Shown: positions 15,430 to 27,873 of the stretch, in pieces
Layout: each line of letters opens with the position of its first letter
How positions within the stretch are numbered: position 1 is the first letter of the stretch
The notes under the pieces: model-generated
The model's input: only the letters and a program-made list of their open reading frames with translations
What the model was told of the DNA's origin: nothing
Database searches by the model: none
Source of the DNA: Candidatus Woesearchaeota archaeon
GTDB lineage: Archaea; Nanobdellota; Nanobdellia; Woesearchaeales; UBA9642
Reading direction: 5' to 3'
Length of the DNA stretch: 64,000 nucleotides
NCBI GenBank assembly: GCA_026002815.1
Contig: BPGB01000004.1
Coordinates: 1 to 64,000, forward strand
Translations under genes and position numbers: made by a program

Positions 15430-15684
15430 ATGGCAATACTAAAAACAGATACAAAAGAAGTAGAATTGCCTGATGGCTCTCCTACAATGAATGCTGCTGA
15501 GGAGTTAGGTGTTCCTTTTGGATGCAGGCAGGGAGTCTGCGGTACATGCAAAGTTGAAGTCGTTGAGGGAATGGAGAATCTTGAGCCAAAAACGGAGAGA
15601 GAAATAGAATTAAATTTATCACCTAACGAGCGTTCAATGTGCCAGTGCAAGATAAAATCAGGTGTTGTTAAAATAAGATTTTAG
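15430..15684 (+). CDS. [2Fe-2S] ferredoxin
   Basis: An 84-residue plant/bacterial-type ferredoxin, a soluble one-electron carrier. The cluster ligands are visible as CRQGVCGTC plus a distal MCQC. Residues LPDGSPTMNAAEELGVPFGC give the beta-grasp fold. It ends 55 bp from the convergent end of the redox operon (15740-20190), whose FNR module lacks its own 2Fe-2S domain, so it may be the partner of that module; that link is inference from position. Confidence 0.93.
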   Translation: MAILKTDTKEVELPDGSPTMNAAEELGVPFGCRQGVCGTCKVEVVEGMENLEPKTEREIELNLSPNERSMCQCKIKSGVVKIRF

Positions 15685-15739: not shown

Positions 15740-17281
15740 TCATTTAGTAATATCGCATTTTCCTGGTAGGTTCCAATTATCTCTTCTTATGTTTTTAACT
15801 CCTAAATCTTTAGCTATTTTTTCCATCTCTGCAACCATTCCTGGAGGACCACATATCATCCAAGTATAATCTTCTGGCTTATTAACATATTTTAGAATCA
15901 TTTCCTTATTTATTCTTCCTTTTTCTCCTAGCCAGTTAGAATCATACTTTTCTAATGTGTTCATTATATAGATATTGTCTCTGCTTAAATAGTCTAGTTC
16001 TTCTCTGAATATTATGTCGTCATAAGTACAATTCGCATTTAATAATATTATTCTGTTTTTCATATTATTATTTCTTACATGTCTTAGTATGCTTATGAAT
16101 GGCGTTATTCCTGTACCACCAGAAAGCATTAGAATATTTTCTTCTGTATCAATTTTATATGTTTCTCCTAATGGTTTGCTTATTAGAAGTATTTCTCCTA
16201 TTTTAGAATTTATTAATTCTCTACTATATCCACCCATATCTTTTATTGTAAATCTTAAATTATCTTCTTCTGGCGCGCTTGCAATAGTTATTGGTATGTA
16301 TTCTTTATTGTTTATAGTTATACCTTTTCCAATCATTACATATTGTCCAGCTATGAATGAAAATGGTTTCTCTGTAATTATAGTATAAACATCATGTGTT
16401 TCTTTTTTTATGTTTATTATTCTTACTGGATATTTGTCTTTTTTACCTATTATGCTTTTAATTTTTTCTTTGTCAATAACTCTTTTATATAATGGAGTTT
16501 TGTCTTCGTCATATATTCCTATTGATTCTTCGAAAACCTCTTTATCTTTTATATATAGTATTCCTAAAGGCATCTTTTCTGTTTCTAGTGCTTTTGAGAA
16601 TGCCCAACCTTTATTATGCGGGTCGAATTCTTTTTCTAGATAGTATGTGTGTTCATTATACCATTCATAAGTGTTTAATTTGTTGAATGTAACACATGGT
16701 TGTAATATATCAACTAATGCAAATCCTTTATGTGTAATTGCTTTTTTTACTATTTCTTTAGCATGTTCCATATCATTTACGCTTGCTCTTGCAACGAATG
16801 ATGCATCAAGCGATATTGCCACAGCTAATGGATTGAATGGTTCAAGAATAACTCCTGAAATTTGTACAGGCGTTTTCATTCCTTTTAAACTAGTAGGGCT
16901 TGCTTGTCCCTTTGTCAATCCATAAATCATGTTATCATGAACAATAACTGTTATGTTAGGATTTCTCCTTATAGCATGTATGAAGTGATTCCCTCCTTCC
17001 CCATACATATCTCCATCTCCGCTTGTTACTATGACTGTTAATTCAGGATTGCTTGCCTTTATTGCAGTTGCAGGGGGTAATGCTCTTCCATGTAATCCAT
17101 TAAAATAATTAGTATTAAGATATTGTGGAAGTTTTGCTGCTTGTCCAATTCCTGAAACAATAACAACTTTTGTAGGATCGAGAGAAAGTTCATCTAACGC
17201 TTTTTTAACTATGTTTATTATGCTGAAGTTTCCACATCCTGGGCACCATGCAATATCGTTATGATTTATTTCAAAAGGCAT
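15740..17281 (-). CDS. 2-oxoacid:ferredoxin oxidoreductase beta subunit fused to FNR-type flavin reductase
   Basis: A 513-residue two-domain protein. Residues 1-280 are the thiamine-diphosphate beta subunit of a 2-oxoacid oxidoreductase: [19 protein letters not shown], the TPP/Mg motif [25 protein letters not shown]. Cluster cysteines C13, C16 and C196 are present, but the fourth position (of SGIGC in KorB) is Q47, which I recall as typical of one bacterial subfamily. Residues 284-513 are an FAD/NAD(P) reductase of the FNR superfamily: [33 protein letters not shown]. Its ATG overlaps the stop of the upstream fusion gene by one base (TAATG), so both are translated as a coupled pair. Predicted to pass electrons from 2-oxoacid decarboxylation to or from NAD(P)H. 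Confidence 0.9.
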
Positions 17282-20190
17282 TATATCGTCCTCGATATTT
17301 TTTCTACTAGTTCTTCAACACTGAAAGGCAGGCCATTATATTTTAATATTTTCTCGACCTTTATGCCTGTTTCTTTTTTTATTAGATTAGCAAATTGTCC
17401 TGTAGAATTATTTTCTATTACAATAATCTTTCTTGCTTTTTTTAAGTATTGTTCTGTTTTAGGATGTAACGGATAAACTTGCGAGTAATGTAAGTATGAT
17501 ATTTTTTCTCTTTTAATTCCTGTGGATATAATTGTCTCAACAGCCTCTTTAACAGTTCCATAAGTGCTTCCCCAACTTATTATTAAAATATCATAATTTT
17601 CTTCTTCGCCAAAAATTTTTGGAGGTATTGATTCTTCAAGAATAAGCTTGTGTTTTTTCATCCTCTTCTCAACCATTATATTCCGTACATTCATGTTTTC
17701 AGTTATTCTCCCATATTCATCATGTTCATCACTATCTACGCAGACTGTTCCCTCCCCAAATCCAGGTATTCCTCTTGGACTTATTCCATTATCTGTAATA
17801 GAGTATCTCTTGTAATCCTTAGAAGTTTTTATTATGTGATGTTCAACATTTAAGTTATTTAAGTCTATTAGGGGTACATTATTTACAGTGTCGATAAAAT
17901 ATTGATCCGTTAATATAAATACAGGAATTTGATACTTTGCAGCAGCATTAAATGCTTTTTGTGTTAAATATATTCCTTCTATCAGGTTTCCTGGAGCATA
18001 TATTAATCTACAGAATTCCCCATGTCCAGAATATAGTGCAAGATTTAAGTCTTCTTGTGCAGTTCTAGTAGGAAGTCCTGTGGCTGGGCCTGGTCTTTGT
18101 GCGATGTGTATTACTATTGGGGATTCAATCATTCCTGCAAGACTTACACCTTCAGTCATTAGAGCAAAACCTCCTCCTGAAGTGTTTGCAAGTGCCCTCG
18201 CACCAGCATACCATGCACCTATAGCCATATTAATTGCGGAAATTTCATCTTCGGCTTGCTCTACTATTATTCCAAAATCGTTCTTCTTTGAAGCCATATA
18301 AGTTAGAACGCCTGTTGAAGGAGACATAGGATATGCTGATATGAAGTTACAACCACCAGCAATTGCGCCTATACCTATACTTTCTGAGCCATGTAACAGA
18401 ATTTGTTCTTGTACATTTTTATCAGTATTTATATTAAACAACTCTCTTATATAGTTATTATTCCTTAATCTTTGTCCTTCTTCATAGCCCTTATTTGCTG
18501 CTTGAATATTTTGTTCAACTACATTAGAAGGTTTATCGGAAAAACTTTTTCTAATCAATTCATGGAATCGCTCTATTCTAGAATTAAAGATTCCTAATAT
18601 TATTCCAGTAGCTACAGTATTAGCAAATATTTTTGAACCAATATTTGATGCAATATCCATTATTGGGACATCAAAAATTTTTTCATTATTTTCTCCTAAT
18701 ATTTTTTTATCACCTATAATGATTGTTTTTTCAGATATTCTATCTGAAAGATGGTTTATTGCATTTTTGTTTAGGGGGAGTAAAACATCTATCCTGTTAA
18801 TATACCCTTCAATAGGTTTTGAACTTACTCTTATGGTTGTAGAGTTTTCGCCTCCTCTAACTCTAGACATGTATTCTTTAGTCGCAAATATGTTATATCC
18901 TTCGTTTTTAAGTATTTGGGAAAGAAAATTAAAGATTGATTCTATACCTTGTCCGGCCTCTCCACATAGCACTATATTTACTTCTTTGGTTTCTTGATTT
19001 TTTGAATTATGCTCTATGTTATTTTGAATTATTCCTAGTTCTATGTGTTTGCTAATTACTTTTTCAACAACAGAATCCATTAATGAATACTTATTTTCTT
19101 TTAATAGTCCTTTTATTTGTGTTGGTTCAATTAATTCTGCTTTAAAATTATTTGTCAATTGTTTAAATTGTTCAGGTGCATTGCTTCCCCATTCATATGA
19201 TCCTATAAATGTCAATATTTTAGTCTTTGGGTGCAGAGAATTTGCAAGATATAGTATTGATGCAATTTTTGGATGTAAGCCTCCTAAATAAGTTGGGCTC
19301 GCGACAATCAAAGTTGAAGCATCAACTAAATCCATTGCAATTTTTCCAGCATCAACATCAAGAACATTATATTCTTTTACAGTTATTCCTTTTTCAATAA
19401 GTTTTGTTACTAAGTATTTAACCATCCCCTTGGTGCTACCATGCATTGAAATATATACAATAACGACTTCTGGTTTAACTTTTTTTGAAGTCCATTCTTC
19501 ATATAAGGATAAAGGATATTCAGGATTGTTATACATTGGACCATGACTTGGTGCTATTATTTCAATATCTAATTTTCTTATTTTTTCAAGATTTTTTGTT
19601 ATTATATTAGCAAACGGCATCATTATTTCAGAATAATACCTTTTTGCTGGGAGATATATATTTTCATCTGCATATAAATCGCTTGTTGCAATATGCGAAC
19701 CAAAGAAGTCGCAAGTAAAAAGTATTCTATCCTCAATTAGATATGTACACATCGTTTCAGGCCAATGAACCCATGGAGTGAATATAAATTGCAAGGTTTT
19801 GTCCCCTAATGAAAGTTTGTCATAATCGTTCATGATGATGAAATTTGATTCTTCTAAGAAGTGTTCATCCATCAATATTTTTTTGTTCAATTCATTACAT
19901 ACAATTTTACATTCAGGATATTTTTGTAAAACTGCATTTATAGATCCAGAATGATCTTGTTCACCATGGTTCGATATTATATAATCTATCTTCTTTATTG
20001 TTTTTAGATTTTCTAATAGAACATCAGTCATCGTGGGGTCTACTGTGTCTATGAGCGCTGTTTTTTCAGAACCAATAATTAAGTAAGAATTATAGCTTGT
20101 ACCTTCTGGAAGATAAATTATTTCATCAAAGTATTTCCTATCCCAGTCTATTGCTCCAACAGAATAAACATTTTCTGTTATCTTTTTCAT
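17281..20190 (-). CDS. Flavodiiron protein fused to 2-oxoacid oxidoreductase gamma and alpha subunits
   Basis: A 969-residue triple fusion. Residues 1-240: beta-lactamase-fold diiron domain with all ligands visible (H75, E77, D79, H142, D161, H216), the O2/NO-reducing site of flavodiiron proteins. Residues 241-385: flavodoxin-like FMN domain ([33 protein letters not shown]). Residues 403-585: gamma subunit ([23 protein letters not shown]). Residues 595-969: alpha subunit ([44 protein letters not shown]). Start after GAGGTG. The beta subunit follows with a one-base overlap. Together they should make an alpha-beta-gamma 2-oxoacid oxidoreductase physically tethered to an oxygen/NO reductase. No 4Fe-4S ferredoxin (delta) domain is seen. 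Confidence 0.93.
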
Positions 20191-20734
20191 CTACACCTCT
20201 TTTTTATAAGCACAGTATTTCATTGCTTTTTTTATTGAGTATAACTTATTAGCTTAAATAATGCGCATATATTAATTAGTTAATGCATACTATTTATATT
20301 TTACATTGTTTCTTATTTATAAATATTTTTAGAGCGAGTTTTATTTTAAGATTTTTATTAAATGTGCTGTCTTATAGCTTTCTAATTATTTTTTATCTTT
20401 TATTTTTTTATTAATTTTTTTATTTTTTTCTTTTATTGATATGTTTTTTATATTAGGTATATTTATTCATAAATTTTATAAATAGATTGTGTTTCCCATA
20501 AGTATCATATATTTAATGAACCAGATATATTTATATTGATATACTTTAATGTTTTTGATGTATATTTTTGAATAATTGAATATTTTGTTTATAAGGTAGA
20601 CTAAAAGTCTGAAGTGGTAGAATTGCAAATAATAAAAAGCAATACTAAAACAAAGATAGAACTGGAAATAAAAAAGTCATACCATTTAAGAAATAGTGTA
20701 TCAAATAGCGTATCATATAATATTTTTGATAGAA
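20191..20734. other. Divergent intergenic region, 544 bp
   Basis: AT-rich. On the - strand GAGGTG precedes the flavodiiron fusion gene. On the + strand a TATA-like GTTTATAAGG at about 20588-20597 would start a transcript near 20614, leaving a leader of about 120 nt before the transglycosylase ATG. That leader contains a 67-codon GTG frame (20614-20817) that overlaps the next gene; I could not support it as a real protein. Confidence 0.45.
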
Positions 20735-21394
20735 ATGAAAAGGCTAATGAATTTGTTAAAGGACGGAGTATTAGTGACTTTAATCACAAGTTCATTAGCT
20801 GGCAGTCCGAGAAATGAGCCTTCTTTAGAAAATAAATTATTAAACGACCAATTATTTAATAATAAAAAAGAACCAGAATTATATTTAGACAAAATCAATT
20901 CAAGAGCCCTATCATATTCTGAAATAAGAAAATATCTAGACAAAGCATATTCTAAAATAAAAACTCCAGAATACATAAATTTAGCTGTACAACTGGCAAG
21001 AAGCTATGTGGAGAGTAAAGACAATCCGTATGCAGTAAGTAATGCAGGAGCCAGAGGATTATATCAGATAATGGAGGAATCATGGAATGAAGTGATGAAC
21101 GAATACAGTTTTGACCACGCTTTTGATCCATACCTCAATAATATCGCAAGTTTAAAACATATACTTAGAATAGATACTTATTTGAGGCAGAACTATCCAG
21201 GATTTGAAGAATTACCATTAGAGCAAAAACGTGATTTATTAAATGCAGCATATAATGGAGGTCAAGGCAGATTAAAAAGTGTTGGTTGGGATATAAATGC
21301 AATGCCAAAGGAGACAAGAGATTACGTTAAGAAGATGAGAGAGAGGACGCTAGAAGAAGAGATGAAATTATATGGGTTGAATGCTAAAGGTTGA
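20735..21394 (+). CDS. Secreted lytic transglycosylase-like (SLT) protein
   Basis: A 219-residue protein with a basic, hydrophobic N-terminus (MKRLMNLLKDGVLVTLITSS) that looks like a signal peptide, then a goose-lysozyme/SLT domain (about 75-205). The three family motifs are present: catalytic Glu-Ser in YVESKDNP (E93), GLYQIMEESW, and NAAYNGG. Such enzymes cleave the MurNAc-GlcNAc bond of bacterial peptidoglycan. Archaea have no murein, so the target is likely another cell, for example a bacterial neighbour or host, or an own glycan; that is inference. Alternative start at 20747. Confidence 0.85.
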   Translation: MKRLMNLLKDGVLVTLITSSLAGSPRNEPSLENKLLNDQLFNNKKEPELYLDKINSRALSYSEIRKYLDKAYSKIKTPEYINLAVQLARSYVESKDNPYAVSNAGARGLYQIMEESWNEVMNEYSFDHAFDPYLNNIASLKHILRIDTYLRQNYPGFEELPLEQKRDLLNAAYNGGQGRLKSVGWDINAMPKETRDYVKKMRERTLEEEMKLYGLNAKG

Positions 21395-22808: not shown

Positions 22809-22896
22809 ACAATTAGCTAACTTGTTGTTTTTATAAATATTATTATACTTTCAAAAATATTTATAAAGAAAGTTCTAATTCTTAAATAGAATTTAT

Positions 22897-22983
22897 GCTC
22901 CTGTAGTGTAGTCCGGACAATCATACAGCCCTCTCAAATCTTGGAGAACGGCTGTGACCCGGGTTCAAATCCCGGCGGGAGCA
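22897..22983 (+). tRNA. tRNA-Glu(CTC) with 12-nt intron
   Basis: Acceptor GCTCCTG/CGGGAGC, anticodon stem CAGCC/GGCTG, T-arm CCGGG-TTCAAAT-CCCGG, discriminator A. The anticodon loop has 19 bases: CTCTCA, 12 extra bases (22937-22948), then C. CTCT (32-35) pairs with GGAG in the intron, giving 3-base bulges CA^A and AA^C: canonical 37/38 intron of only 12 nt. TATA-like box about 36 nt upstream. Confidence 0.92.
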
Positions 22984-23904
22984 TTATAGATAATAAAGTA
23001 CTAAGAAGAAAATTATATATATTAACGGCACTATAATTAGCATGCTATATTCTGTTGTTTTATGTATCTTCTCCACTATCTTTTCTTTTTTACGCTCTTG
23101 GAAATCAAAGATGATAATATTTATAACAAAGCTTACAAGCAGTATCGCATAAGTAAGCATCATGAACTTGTCTGCAAAAGTTAGATATCCTACAGGTGGT
23201 ATCTGATTAGTTATTGATACATGGAACATTACCGAGGCAACTAATGCTGAGCTTATCATTGCTACTCTTGTAGCTATTTTGTCCGGGTCAATGACAAAGC
23301 TGCTTAATGCAACAAGCATTATGAATATTATGGGCAATAATGTTTTTATAAAGGAGTTTAAGAATATTTTTGATATGTTGATGTTGAATGTATACCTTGA
23401 GTATATCTCATCATATATTTCATATTCGTGATCATCAACGGTTACATCCCATCCATCAATATACCATCCAGTGAACAATACTGCATCATCAATCCCCGAT
23501 TGTTCCTTATCAGGAACATACCTCAATTTATCTATGGTATTTTTTTTATCCTCTATTATTATCTGCATTTTTTGCCTATCAAAGGGAAACTTTACAAGGT
23601 CAACCCTGCTATTAAGAGTTGCTTGGATCCTATAGAATTTCTCGTTTGGCTCATCTATTATCTTATCGATGCTTGTTGCCCTTCCATTCATGAATTCAAA
23701 ATTTTCAGGAGAGCATCTATCTTCACATCTCATTGAAAGATAAAAATCAGCAGTGAATGCTCCTGTAGAAGTATCGAATTTTCCAAGGTTAAGAATATAC
23801 AAGCCTACTTTGACATCTTTCGAATTATCCTGTGCGTTAACAAGTGATATGCTTAATAGTAATAAAGGAAATATCAATAATAAGGATAATATTTTTTTGC
23901 CCAT
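22984..23904 (-). CDS. Pentameric ligand-gated ion channel homologue (Cys-loop receptor superfamily)
   Basis: A 306-residue protein with a signal peptide (1-24), a beta-rich extracellular domain (about 30-180) and four membrane helices (about 181-205, 209-233, 242-268, 285-306). This is the layout of GLIC/ELIC channels. The signature FPFDRQ (residues 106-111) matches the (Y/F)PFDxQ of the Pro-loop, and M1 has the conserved proline (LLPIIF). M2, the pore helix, reads ATRVAMISSALVASVMFHVS. Such channels open an ion pore on binding a ligand or proton outside the cell. Its stop codon abuts the tRNA-Glu 3' end on the opposite strand with no gap. Rare in archaea. Start assigned by signal peptide position. 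Confidence 0.85.
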   Translation of the reverse strand: MGKKILSLLLIFPLLLLSISLVNAQDNSKDVKVGLYILNLGKFDTSTGAFTADFYLSMRCEDRCSPENFEFMNGRATSIDKIIDEPNEKFYRIQATLNSRVDLVKFPFDRQKMQIIIEDKKNTIDKLRYVPDKEQSGIDDAVLFTGWYIDGWDVTVDDHEYEIYDEIYSRYTFNINISKIFLNSFIKTLLPIIFIMLVALSSFVIDPDKIATRVAMISSALVASVMFHVSITNQIPPVGYLTFADKFMMLTYAILLVSFVINIIIFDFQERKKEKIVEKIHKTTEYSMLIIVPLIYIIFFLVLYYL

Positions 23905-27601: not shown

Positions 27602-27604
27602 TAT

Positions 27605-27698
27605 GCCCAGATCGCATAACCTGGTATTGCGTCGGTCTCGAATCGTTGAAAGAAAACCGATGCCGAAAGGCTTCCCGGTTCAAATCCGGGTCTGGGCG
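27605..27698 (+). tRNA. tRNA-Ser(CGA) with 12-nt anticodon-loop intron
   Basis: Acceptor GCCCAGA/TCTGGGC, anticodon stem TCGGT/ACCGA, long variable arm TGCCGAAAGGC, T-arm CCCGG-TTCAAAT-CCGGG, discriminator G (serine). The loop is CTCGAA, 12 extra bases (27643-27654), then A, giving anticodon CGA. The splice motif is not a perfect 3-4-3 form; TCGA can pair with TTGA of the intron, so it looks relaxed. Exact boundaries may shift by a base or two within the A runs. Probably one transcript with tRNA-Gly. Confidence 0.88.
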
Positions 27699-27873
27699 TT
27701 TTTTATTATTTTTTATTATCTTTTTTATTATTTTTTATTATTTATTATATATTTTTATTATATATTTTATGTGATGAATTTATTATTATGTGATGAATTT
27801 ATTGTATGATATTATACTGTATTTATATTATTCATTTATTTCATTATGTGCTAATTACTTTACTATGTGTTAT

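Follow-up and report, generated by a model that had tools for sequence, protein, structure and literature searches.

The window considered here is a stretch of 64,000 nucleotides from a Candidatus Woesearchaeota archaeon (assembly GCA_026002815.1, contig BPGB01000004.1, positions 1 to 64,000). It contains two overlapping genes on the minus strand in which a flavodiiron protein (FDP) is joined to the gamma and alpha domains of a 2-oxoacid:ferredoxin oxidoreductase (OFOR), and the beta subunit of this OFOR to an FAD/NAD(P) reductase (FNR). These are known families in a new, recurring FDP architecture, which comes together with a testable role for an OFOR subfamily. On balance, we lean slightly towards a multi-domain O2 (or NO) reductase which is fed by a 2-oxoacid as well as by NAD(P)H. 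The assembly of the chains, the electron path, the substrate and the use of O2 rather than NO are points which we infer.

Layout of the gene pair

Gene 1 (17281-20190, minus strand) is a single uninterrupted open reading frame (ORF) of 969 residues with the order diiron domain, FMN domain, 17-residue linker, gamma and alpha. Gene 2 (15740-17281, minus strand) is an uninterrupted frame of 513 residues that encodes OFOR beta followed by FNR, and both genes share one base in a TAATG overlap at 17281. The domain order was fixed by matches to Pfam, NCBIfam and PDB entries and agrees with an initial annotation made from the letters alone, which had placed a diiron-FMN-gamma-alpha gene and a beta-FNR gene at these positions. 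Its inventory of FDP, gamma-alpha and beta-FNR was correct, but it overlooked an adjacent [2Fe-2S] ferredoxin gene as well as the loss of a cluster cysteine at Q47 of beta. The features are as follows:

19471..20190, minus strand: metallo-beta-lactamase-type diiron domain of the FDP, residues 1-240 of gene 1 (Pfam ODP/Lactamase_B, match 33-217)
19036..19470, minus strand: flavodoxin (FMN) domain of the FDP, residues 241-385, phosphate loop YISMHGST (PDB FDP matches)
18985..19035, minus strand: linker between FDP and gamma, residues 386-402 (12% identity to the related locus L015, low model confidence)
18457..18984, minus strand: OFOR gamma domain, residues 403-578 (PF01558 POR, 104.6 bits, match 412-570)
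17290..18411, minus strand: OFOR alpha domain, residues 594-967, YPMSP and RPGPATG motifs (PF01855, 182.4 bits, POR_N 608-840)
16439..17281, minus strand: OFOR beta domain, residues 1-281 of the 513-aa protein, TPP site (NF008821/PRK11869; TPP_enzyme_C, PFO_beta_C)
15767..16432, minus strand: FNR-like FAD/NAD(P)H reductase, residues 284-505, GGTGITP and CGPPGM motifs (PF00175, 74.9 bits)
15430..15684, plus strand: plant-type [2Fe-2S] ferredoxin, 84 aa, CX4CX2C at 32-40 (PF00111, 48.9 bits)

Residues 4-354 of gene 1 match the solved FDP 1ycf (E 1.7e-64) and residues 400-967 the solved OFOR 6n2n_A (E 4e-76), so that the domain assignment is not due to chance. In addition, TIGR03710 (OAFO_sf) covers gamma-alpha with 643 bits (residues 403-965). 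In the flavodoxin region (about 243-375), Flavodoxin_1 and Flavodoxin_5 stay under the Pfam cut-off, yet the PDB matches to FDPs extend through it. The diiron ligands H75, E77, D79, (H80), H142, D161 and H216 form a complete set, as had been claimed from the sequence, and the ligand string HEDHHDH recurs in 74 of the 76 rows aligned, a total that includes the window twice; the two rows without the full string (L119, L118) are contig-edge fragments. The FNR part features an NAD_binding_1 match at residues 385-486 of gene 2 and PDB matches to NADH-cytochrome b5 reductases and FNRs, with FAD_binding_8 under its cut-off (20.2 of 22). The ferredoxin gene is convergent with the beta-FNR gene and lies 55 bases from its end; its cysteines C32, C37, C40 and C71/C73 follow the pattern C-x4-C-x2-C ... 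C. Neither chain gave a Pfam match to a Fer4-type domain, i.e., the ferredoxin domain which supplies two additional [4Fe-4S] clusters in OFORs of the three-cluster type. Likewise, no rubredoxin, NADH:rubredoxin oxidoreductase (NROR) or flavin-reductase domain was matched by Pfam in gene 1, which lacks in this respect the class F set of short rubredoxin and NROR.

Further features of the window lie nearby. An SLT-type lytic transglycosylase gene (20696-21394, plus strand) adjoins the FDP-OFOR genes and might point to a host-contact function or a horizontal gain. A protein of 306 residues (22984-23904, minus strand) resembles Cys-loop (pentameric) ligand-gated ion channels, which is unexpected in such an archaeon; its ligand-binding part (24.2 of 26 bits) and its membrane part (23.0 of 28.1) both stay just under the Pfam cut-off. 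Besides, ARAGORN predicted a pair of tRNA-like genes whose anticodons have four bases (ctca, cgaa) at 22896-22984 and 27604-27699 (plus strand), which are perhaps intron-containing tRNAs or misreads under the bacterial setting.

Recurrence and history in Woesearchaea

The same two genes were found in a second woesearchaeal metagenome-assembled genome (MAG) of the same order, Candidatus Woesearchaeota MAG ZodW_maxbin.125 (locus L015, genome G054). There, a continuous ORF of 976 residues encodes FDP-gamma-alpha with 52% identity to gene 1 of the window, and an ORF of 635 residues encodes beta-FNR-[2Fe-2S], the ferredoxin being fused behind the FNR in an order presumably shared with Hcr. Identity between the two loci reaches 55% in the diiron domain, 40% in the FMN domain, 50% in gamma and 59% in alpha, with 12% in the linker; for beta, FNR and ferredoxin it is 67, 43 and 65%. 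Conserved domains flanking an unconserved linker form the pattern that would be expected from selection on a real fusion. The [2Fe-2S] ferredoxin, being part of the beta-FNR chain in L015 and a direct neighbour of it in the window, belongs to the system.

The window genome is a 1.70-Mb draft in 26 contigs with an estimated completeness of 82% and contamination of 5.8%, which leaves room for a chimera of neighbouring genes, and the initial annotation had itself considered an assembly join between separate genes. This explanation was rejected and is effectively refuted by an independent MAG in which the architecture is equally continuous (52% identity); moreover, the G+C content of the stretch (about 31%) lies inside the range of the window. 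A search for the FDP-gamma-alpha architecture, as that annotation had proposed, returned 2 of 352 genomes of the order, namely the window genome and G054. In a phylum sample of 371 genomes the fusion was present only in the window's own genome, G054 not being among the matches, and a contig search found it in 1 of the best 80 loci, from which the records of the window genome itself were possibly excluded. A widespread occurrence of the fusion was rejected on these counts (2/352 in the order, 1/371 in the phylum sample).

A third archaeal genome, G040, sheds light on the affiliation of the FNR. One of its contigs ends within an FDP diiron domain that is 71% identical to that of the window, and another starts with the matching FMN domain (55%) and runs directly into an FNR (53%), with no OFOR part in between and a convergent [2Fe-2S] ferredoxin (67%) beside the FNR. 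FDP and FNR thus seem to be joined in G040, although the break in the FDP falls at both contig ends. Searching G040 with gene 1 at E <= 0.001 yielded only the two FDP pieces and no OFOR match, and a search for OFOR beta gave nothing at E <= 1e-15. FNR and FDP genes also lie side by side or close to each other in other Woesearchaea (L100, L126, L127). Among them, L126 (6723-11794, one strand) comprises a FUR regulator, rubrerythrin, a rubrerythrin-like and a ferritin-like protein, FNR, superoxide reductase (SOR), a nitroreductase-like protein and FDP, the ferritin and nitroreductase labels being assigned by eye from the sequence. As FNR accompanies FDP in G040 and in these other Woesearchaea, it is most simply regarded as the NAD(P)H reductase of the FDP. 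Window-type FNR and [2Fe-2S] genes also occur about 1 kb apart on the same strand in genome G018 (L243, 1989-2741 and 3835-4140, minus strand), with no FDP match on the fetched stretch.

These observations bear on the main rival explanation, a 2-oxoacid:NAD(P)+ oxidoreductase with a guard, in which electrons would run from OFOR via the [2Fe-2S] protein and FNR to NAD(P)+ and the FDP would burn off O2 harmful to the OFOR. Eukaryotic pyruvate:NADP+ oxidoreductase serves as its model. The direct fusion of beta to FNR, or in L015 to FNR-[2Fe-2S], speaks for such a pathway, and low-potential electrons from 2-oxoacids are generally able to reduce NAD(P)+. We nevertheless consider it unlikely, given that in G040 FDP, FNR and ferredoxin apparently persist together in the absence of any OFOR match, by which the FNR seems to be that of the FDP, and that bacterial loci of the same OFOR type near FDP, rubrerythrin or SOR genes show no beta-FNR fusion.

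A quick tree without bootstrap places window and G040 as sisters for the FDP (SH-aLRT 95), with L015 next (85). In the FNR tree, window, L015 and G040 make up one clade (99/98). For gamma-alpha, window and L015 are sisters (93/87) within a clade of bacterial OFORs of the type described below (Q-type, 100/100) and apart from the woesearchaeal OFORs sampled; L039, whose beta is of the Q-type, lies apart from the main Q-type clade, across the midpoint root. Loci fetched twice were dropped from the FDP tree, the FNR tree was calculated without L100 (G145) and the partial L005, L007 and L012, and the gamma-alpha tree without L038 (masked), duplicates and loci missing either domain. The trees agree with a joint descent of the FDP, OFOR and FNR parts. 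Most simply, a single fused system existed first and its OFOR was lost later in the lineage of G040; two independent gains are a less simple alternative.

A Q-type OFOR subfamily and its oxygen-stress neighbourhoods

The beta domain of the window contains exactly three cysteines (13, 16, 196), all at ligand positions, and a glutamine at position 47. The four-cysteine proximal [4Fe-4S] site of (alpha-beta)2 OFORs is hence incomplete, with Q47 at the third ligand; we take the third and fourth cluster cysteines to be those indicated by an alignment with 5b48 and by the usual pattern of the family. Across 46 aligned beta rows (including two duplicates), position 47 is Gln in 26 and Cys in 20, the other three cysteines being invariant. 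In a first bacterial set, 25 Q-type loci read CCQC (the 26th is half a gene) as against 25 controls with CCCC and one partial; in a second set from Planctomycetota, 11 CCQC loci stand against 29 with CCCC. The window beta scores 480 bits to PRK11869/NF008821 (cut-off 438), and all five Q-type betas that were scored are nearest to PRK11869, three of them over the cut-off and two narrowly under it. By alignment, the carboxylate-binding arginine (R699) is kept. The threonine of the YPITP motif is replaced by serine in 19 of 26 Q-type rows, and Cys614 of alpha, a possible replacement ligand of the cluster, is present in 26/26 Q-type but also in 17/26 C-type rows.

The altered site could mean that the OFOR is degenerate, a passenger or structural part beside an FDP driven by NAD(P)H only. 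Apart from the glutamine at the third cluster cysteine, this would fit G040, which apparently manages without an OFOR. Still, the retention of CCQC across the bacterial subfamily with the other three cysteines invariant, together with the 67% identity of beta to L015, makes degeneration very improbable.

Bacterial Q-type loci were found to neighbour genes for FUR/PerR-like regulators, peroxiredoxin, FDP, rubrerythrin, SOR, SOD, ferritin and Hcp (L022, L024, L025, L032, L036). For the counts, references were taken from the woesearchaeal loci and the window FDP, and a range of about 6 kb, cut at contig ends, was considered. A stress gene lies near 11 of 26 Q-type loci and near none of 26 ordinary OFOR loci from the same genomes (Fisher p 2.6e-4), and near 6/21 after removal of the five loci that had prompted the idea (p 0.005). 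The signal in this first set is driven by rubrerythrin/ferritin-like genes (10 vs 0, p 7e-4); FDP (5 vs 0, p 0.05), SOR (4 vs 0, p 0.11) and FUR (2 vs 0) are not significant alone. The second set came from another 199 genomes of Planctomycetota, the phylum to which L016 belongs, and contained 11 new Q loci, of which 5 have a stress gene nearby compared to 1 of 29 controls (p 0.0036). Here, FDP is found near 3/11 vs 0/29 loci (p 0.017), and rubrerythrin-like genes (2 vs 1) are not significant. Pooling both sets gives 16/37 vs 1/55 for stress genes (p 5e-7) and 8/37 vs 0/55 for FDP (p 4e-4).

The controls of the first set were 26 loci from 19 of 24 genomes, with one further short match (G542:C13) left outside; the 29 of the second set were hand-picked among the matches listed, 7 from genomes with a Q locus and 22 others from the high end, some being skipped. 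The stress-gene idea arose from the first set, the loci are not independent by descent, and L032 may rank high owing to its FDP. Five sampled rubrerythrin-like and SOR neighbours and two FDPs were confirmed by Pfam. A wider reference set, partly drawn from counted loci, also matched the Q-type loci L227 and L228, which the final references do not; a neighbour of L227 (= L039) is a rubrerythrin by Pfam.

The oxygen-stress genes near part of the bacterial Q-type loci speak for the proposed O2/NO reductase. Going further, Q-type OFORs might be a dedicated oxygen-hardened branch that powers O2, NO and peroxide detoxification directly from keto acids in anaerobes via an O2-surviving cluster held by three cysteines, which may be of the [3Fe-4S] kind or have another ligand, for instance the invariant Cys614 of alpha, the archaeal assembly being its fully welded form. 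We put this forward tentatively, as a possibility somewhat short of an even chance.

Proposed electron routes, comparison with known systems and meaning

In the proposed reductase, the diiron site of the FDP core would turn O2 into water, or NO into N2O, with electrons from its own FMN. NAD(P)H would enter at the FAD of the FNR domain and pass its electrons to the small [2Fe-2S] protein, and the 2-oxoacid would enter at the TPP/Fe-S site of the stress-type OFOR (gamma-alpha plus beta). Electrons of the OFOR probably also leave via the [2Fe-2S] protein, docked at the usual ferredoxin site, which makes this protein a more likely carrier between the modules than a direct hop from cluster to FMN. 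Both streams would converge on the FMN and then reach O2 or NO. As FDPs and (alpha-beta)2 OFORs both function as twofold dimers, the complex probably consists of A2B2 together with the ferredoxin.

No match to rubredoxin (PF00301) over the cut-off was found in the window genome, G054 and G040, and a built-in donor is therefore plausible. Two candidates for it are at hand: the OFOR, and FNR-[2Fe-2S], which resembles class F FDPs in principle and Hcr-like reductases in its domain order. SOR (PF01880) has no match in the window genome and G040 and one in G054. An O2-linked ATP gain via an ADP-forming acyl-CoA synthetase was dropped as a candidate, since the three genomes gave no PF13607 match at E <= 0.001.

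A predicted model of the gene 1 chain has good confidence in the OFOR, a pTM of 0.62 and pLDDT values below 50 in the linker (389-399); over the FDP the alignment used for prediction contained only L015 beside the window, and the poor confidence there says little. The low-confidence linker and the missing confident packing in this model would suit a fusion that only sets stoichiometry and co-expression, with separate modules linked by diffusible ferredoxin, as would the separate [2Fe-2S] gene of the window. That ferredoxin is itself fused in L015, and that FDP, OFOR and FNR parts have common close relatives, renders such a loose association distinctly improbable.

Several points weigh against the proposed reductase. 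The model gives no confident domain packing and speaks neither for nor against a direct cluster-to-FMN transfer. With only three cysteine ligands in beta, the cluster is a putative electron carrier. The phosphate loop for FMN is YITMHGDV in L015 where the window has YISMHGST, and FMN binding is less sure there. The fusion is rare, being confined to the window and L015 among 352 genomes of the order, and three congeners examined had no match to it at E <= 1e-20. The rubredoxin negative is weak for the window genome at about 82% completeness, and rubrerythrin-family matches over the cut-off in this genome and G054 are candidates for rubredoxin-like parts. Moreover, for 21 of the 37 Q-type loci the fetched stretch contains no stress gene of the kinds looked for, and the wider reference set also matched the control L180, a flavin-reductase/rubredoxin-type protein.

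The initial annotation had suggested a single complex in which 2-oxoacid electrons go directly to O2 or NO and/or to NAD(P). This view is partly supported. Its tethering is real and recurs in L015, and the Q-type neighbourhoods, the absence of a rubredoxin match over the cut-off and the apparent FDP-FNR of G040 favour a flow of electrons from 2-oxoacids and/or NAD(P)H to O2 or NO; a direct hop from cluster to FMN is a possibility that gains nothing from the model (pLDDT < 50 in part of the linker, pTM 0.62).

FDPs usually receive electrons from rubredoxin, NAD(P)H reductases or F420. FDPs have been grouped into classes A-H with extra modules of the rubredoxin, NROR or flavin-reductase type (PMC6033852, PMC9364112), and rubredoxin, an NADH/FAD-dependent reductase or a methanogen coenzyme are given as electron sources in general (PMC6033852). 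The extra modules named in the legend of Fig. 1 are Rd, RdS, NROR and FlvR, none of which is an OFOR (PMC6033852). Class F, with short rubredoxin and NADH:rubredoxin oxidoreductase, works as a standalone NADH:O2 reductase and thus offers a precedent (PMC6033852). As far as these classes are described there, the window shares with them an FDP core with full ligands, redox domains added C-terminally and a donor on board, and differs in the added OFOR gamma-alpha, in beta-FNR as a second chain and in having no rubredoxin domain. FDPs with the domains of class F, namely ODP, flavodoxin, short rubredoxin and NROR, were themselves observed in two genomes of the same order, G336 (L296, 401-2989, minus strand, 862 aa) and G334 (L297, 1722-4334, minus strand, 870 aa); class F FDPs are described mainly from Firmicutes (PMC6033852).

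In the Sulfolobus enzyme StOFOR, a CXGC loop (Cys12-Cys15) ligates the single cluster, and a docking model seats ferredoxin in a pocket where 14 A separate its cluster from that of the OFOR (PMC5020499). OFORs are generally O2-sensitive, the two-subunit type being relatively oxygen-tolerant (PMC5020499). Compared to StOFOR (PDB 5b46/5b48, 6n2n) as described in that source, the window has in common a gamma-alpha chain with a TPP beta, one proximal cluster, the CPGC motif and no Fer4 found; it differs in Gln at one of the four cluster cysteines, the N-terminal FDP and the FNR at the C-terminus of beta. PRK11869/NF008821 is named '2-oxoacid ferredoxin oxidoreductase subunit beta', a name that gives only OFOR function, whereas the member in the window carries an FNR. 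The best NCBIfam matches of this FNR are NADH reductases of the Hcr/BenC type (FNR plus [2Fe-2S], 76-77 bits); the scores are far under the equivalog cut-offs, and the window FNR differs in being joined to OFOR beta and in its acceptor, which is likely the FDP.

The nearest working analogue is the [FeFe]-hydrogenase-rubrerythrin chimera CperHydR, for which a coupling of H2 to H2O2 reduction was reported (PMC11926857). In this chimera, a catabolic oxidoreductase is likewise welded to a diiron detoxifier; the proteins are unrelated, and the likeness is one of analogy only. For oxygen scavenging in Scalindua, FDPs and rubrerythrins are named and, in the accessible part of the text, no OFOR (PMC13253579). 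No description of the FDP-OFOR arrangement was found in the open-access literature searched, and within this scope the initial view that it is undescribed holds.

If the FDP has a built-in keto-acid donor, fermenting cells would thereby gain a new means of disposing of O2 or NO and of keeping central metabolism running in micro-oxic places. Beyond the archaeal fusion, the findings suggest a role for an OFOR family in several bacterial phyla that is, as far as the model name tells, unexplained. The occurrence of an OFOR with an altered cluster site within oxygen defence makes the O2 tolerance of OFORs a testable question.

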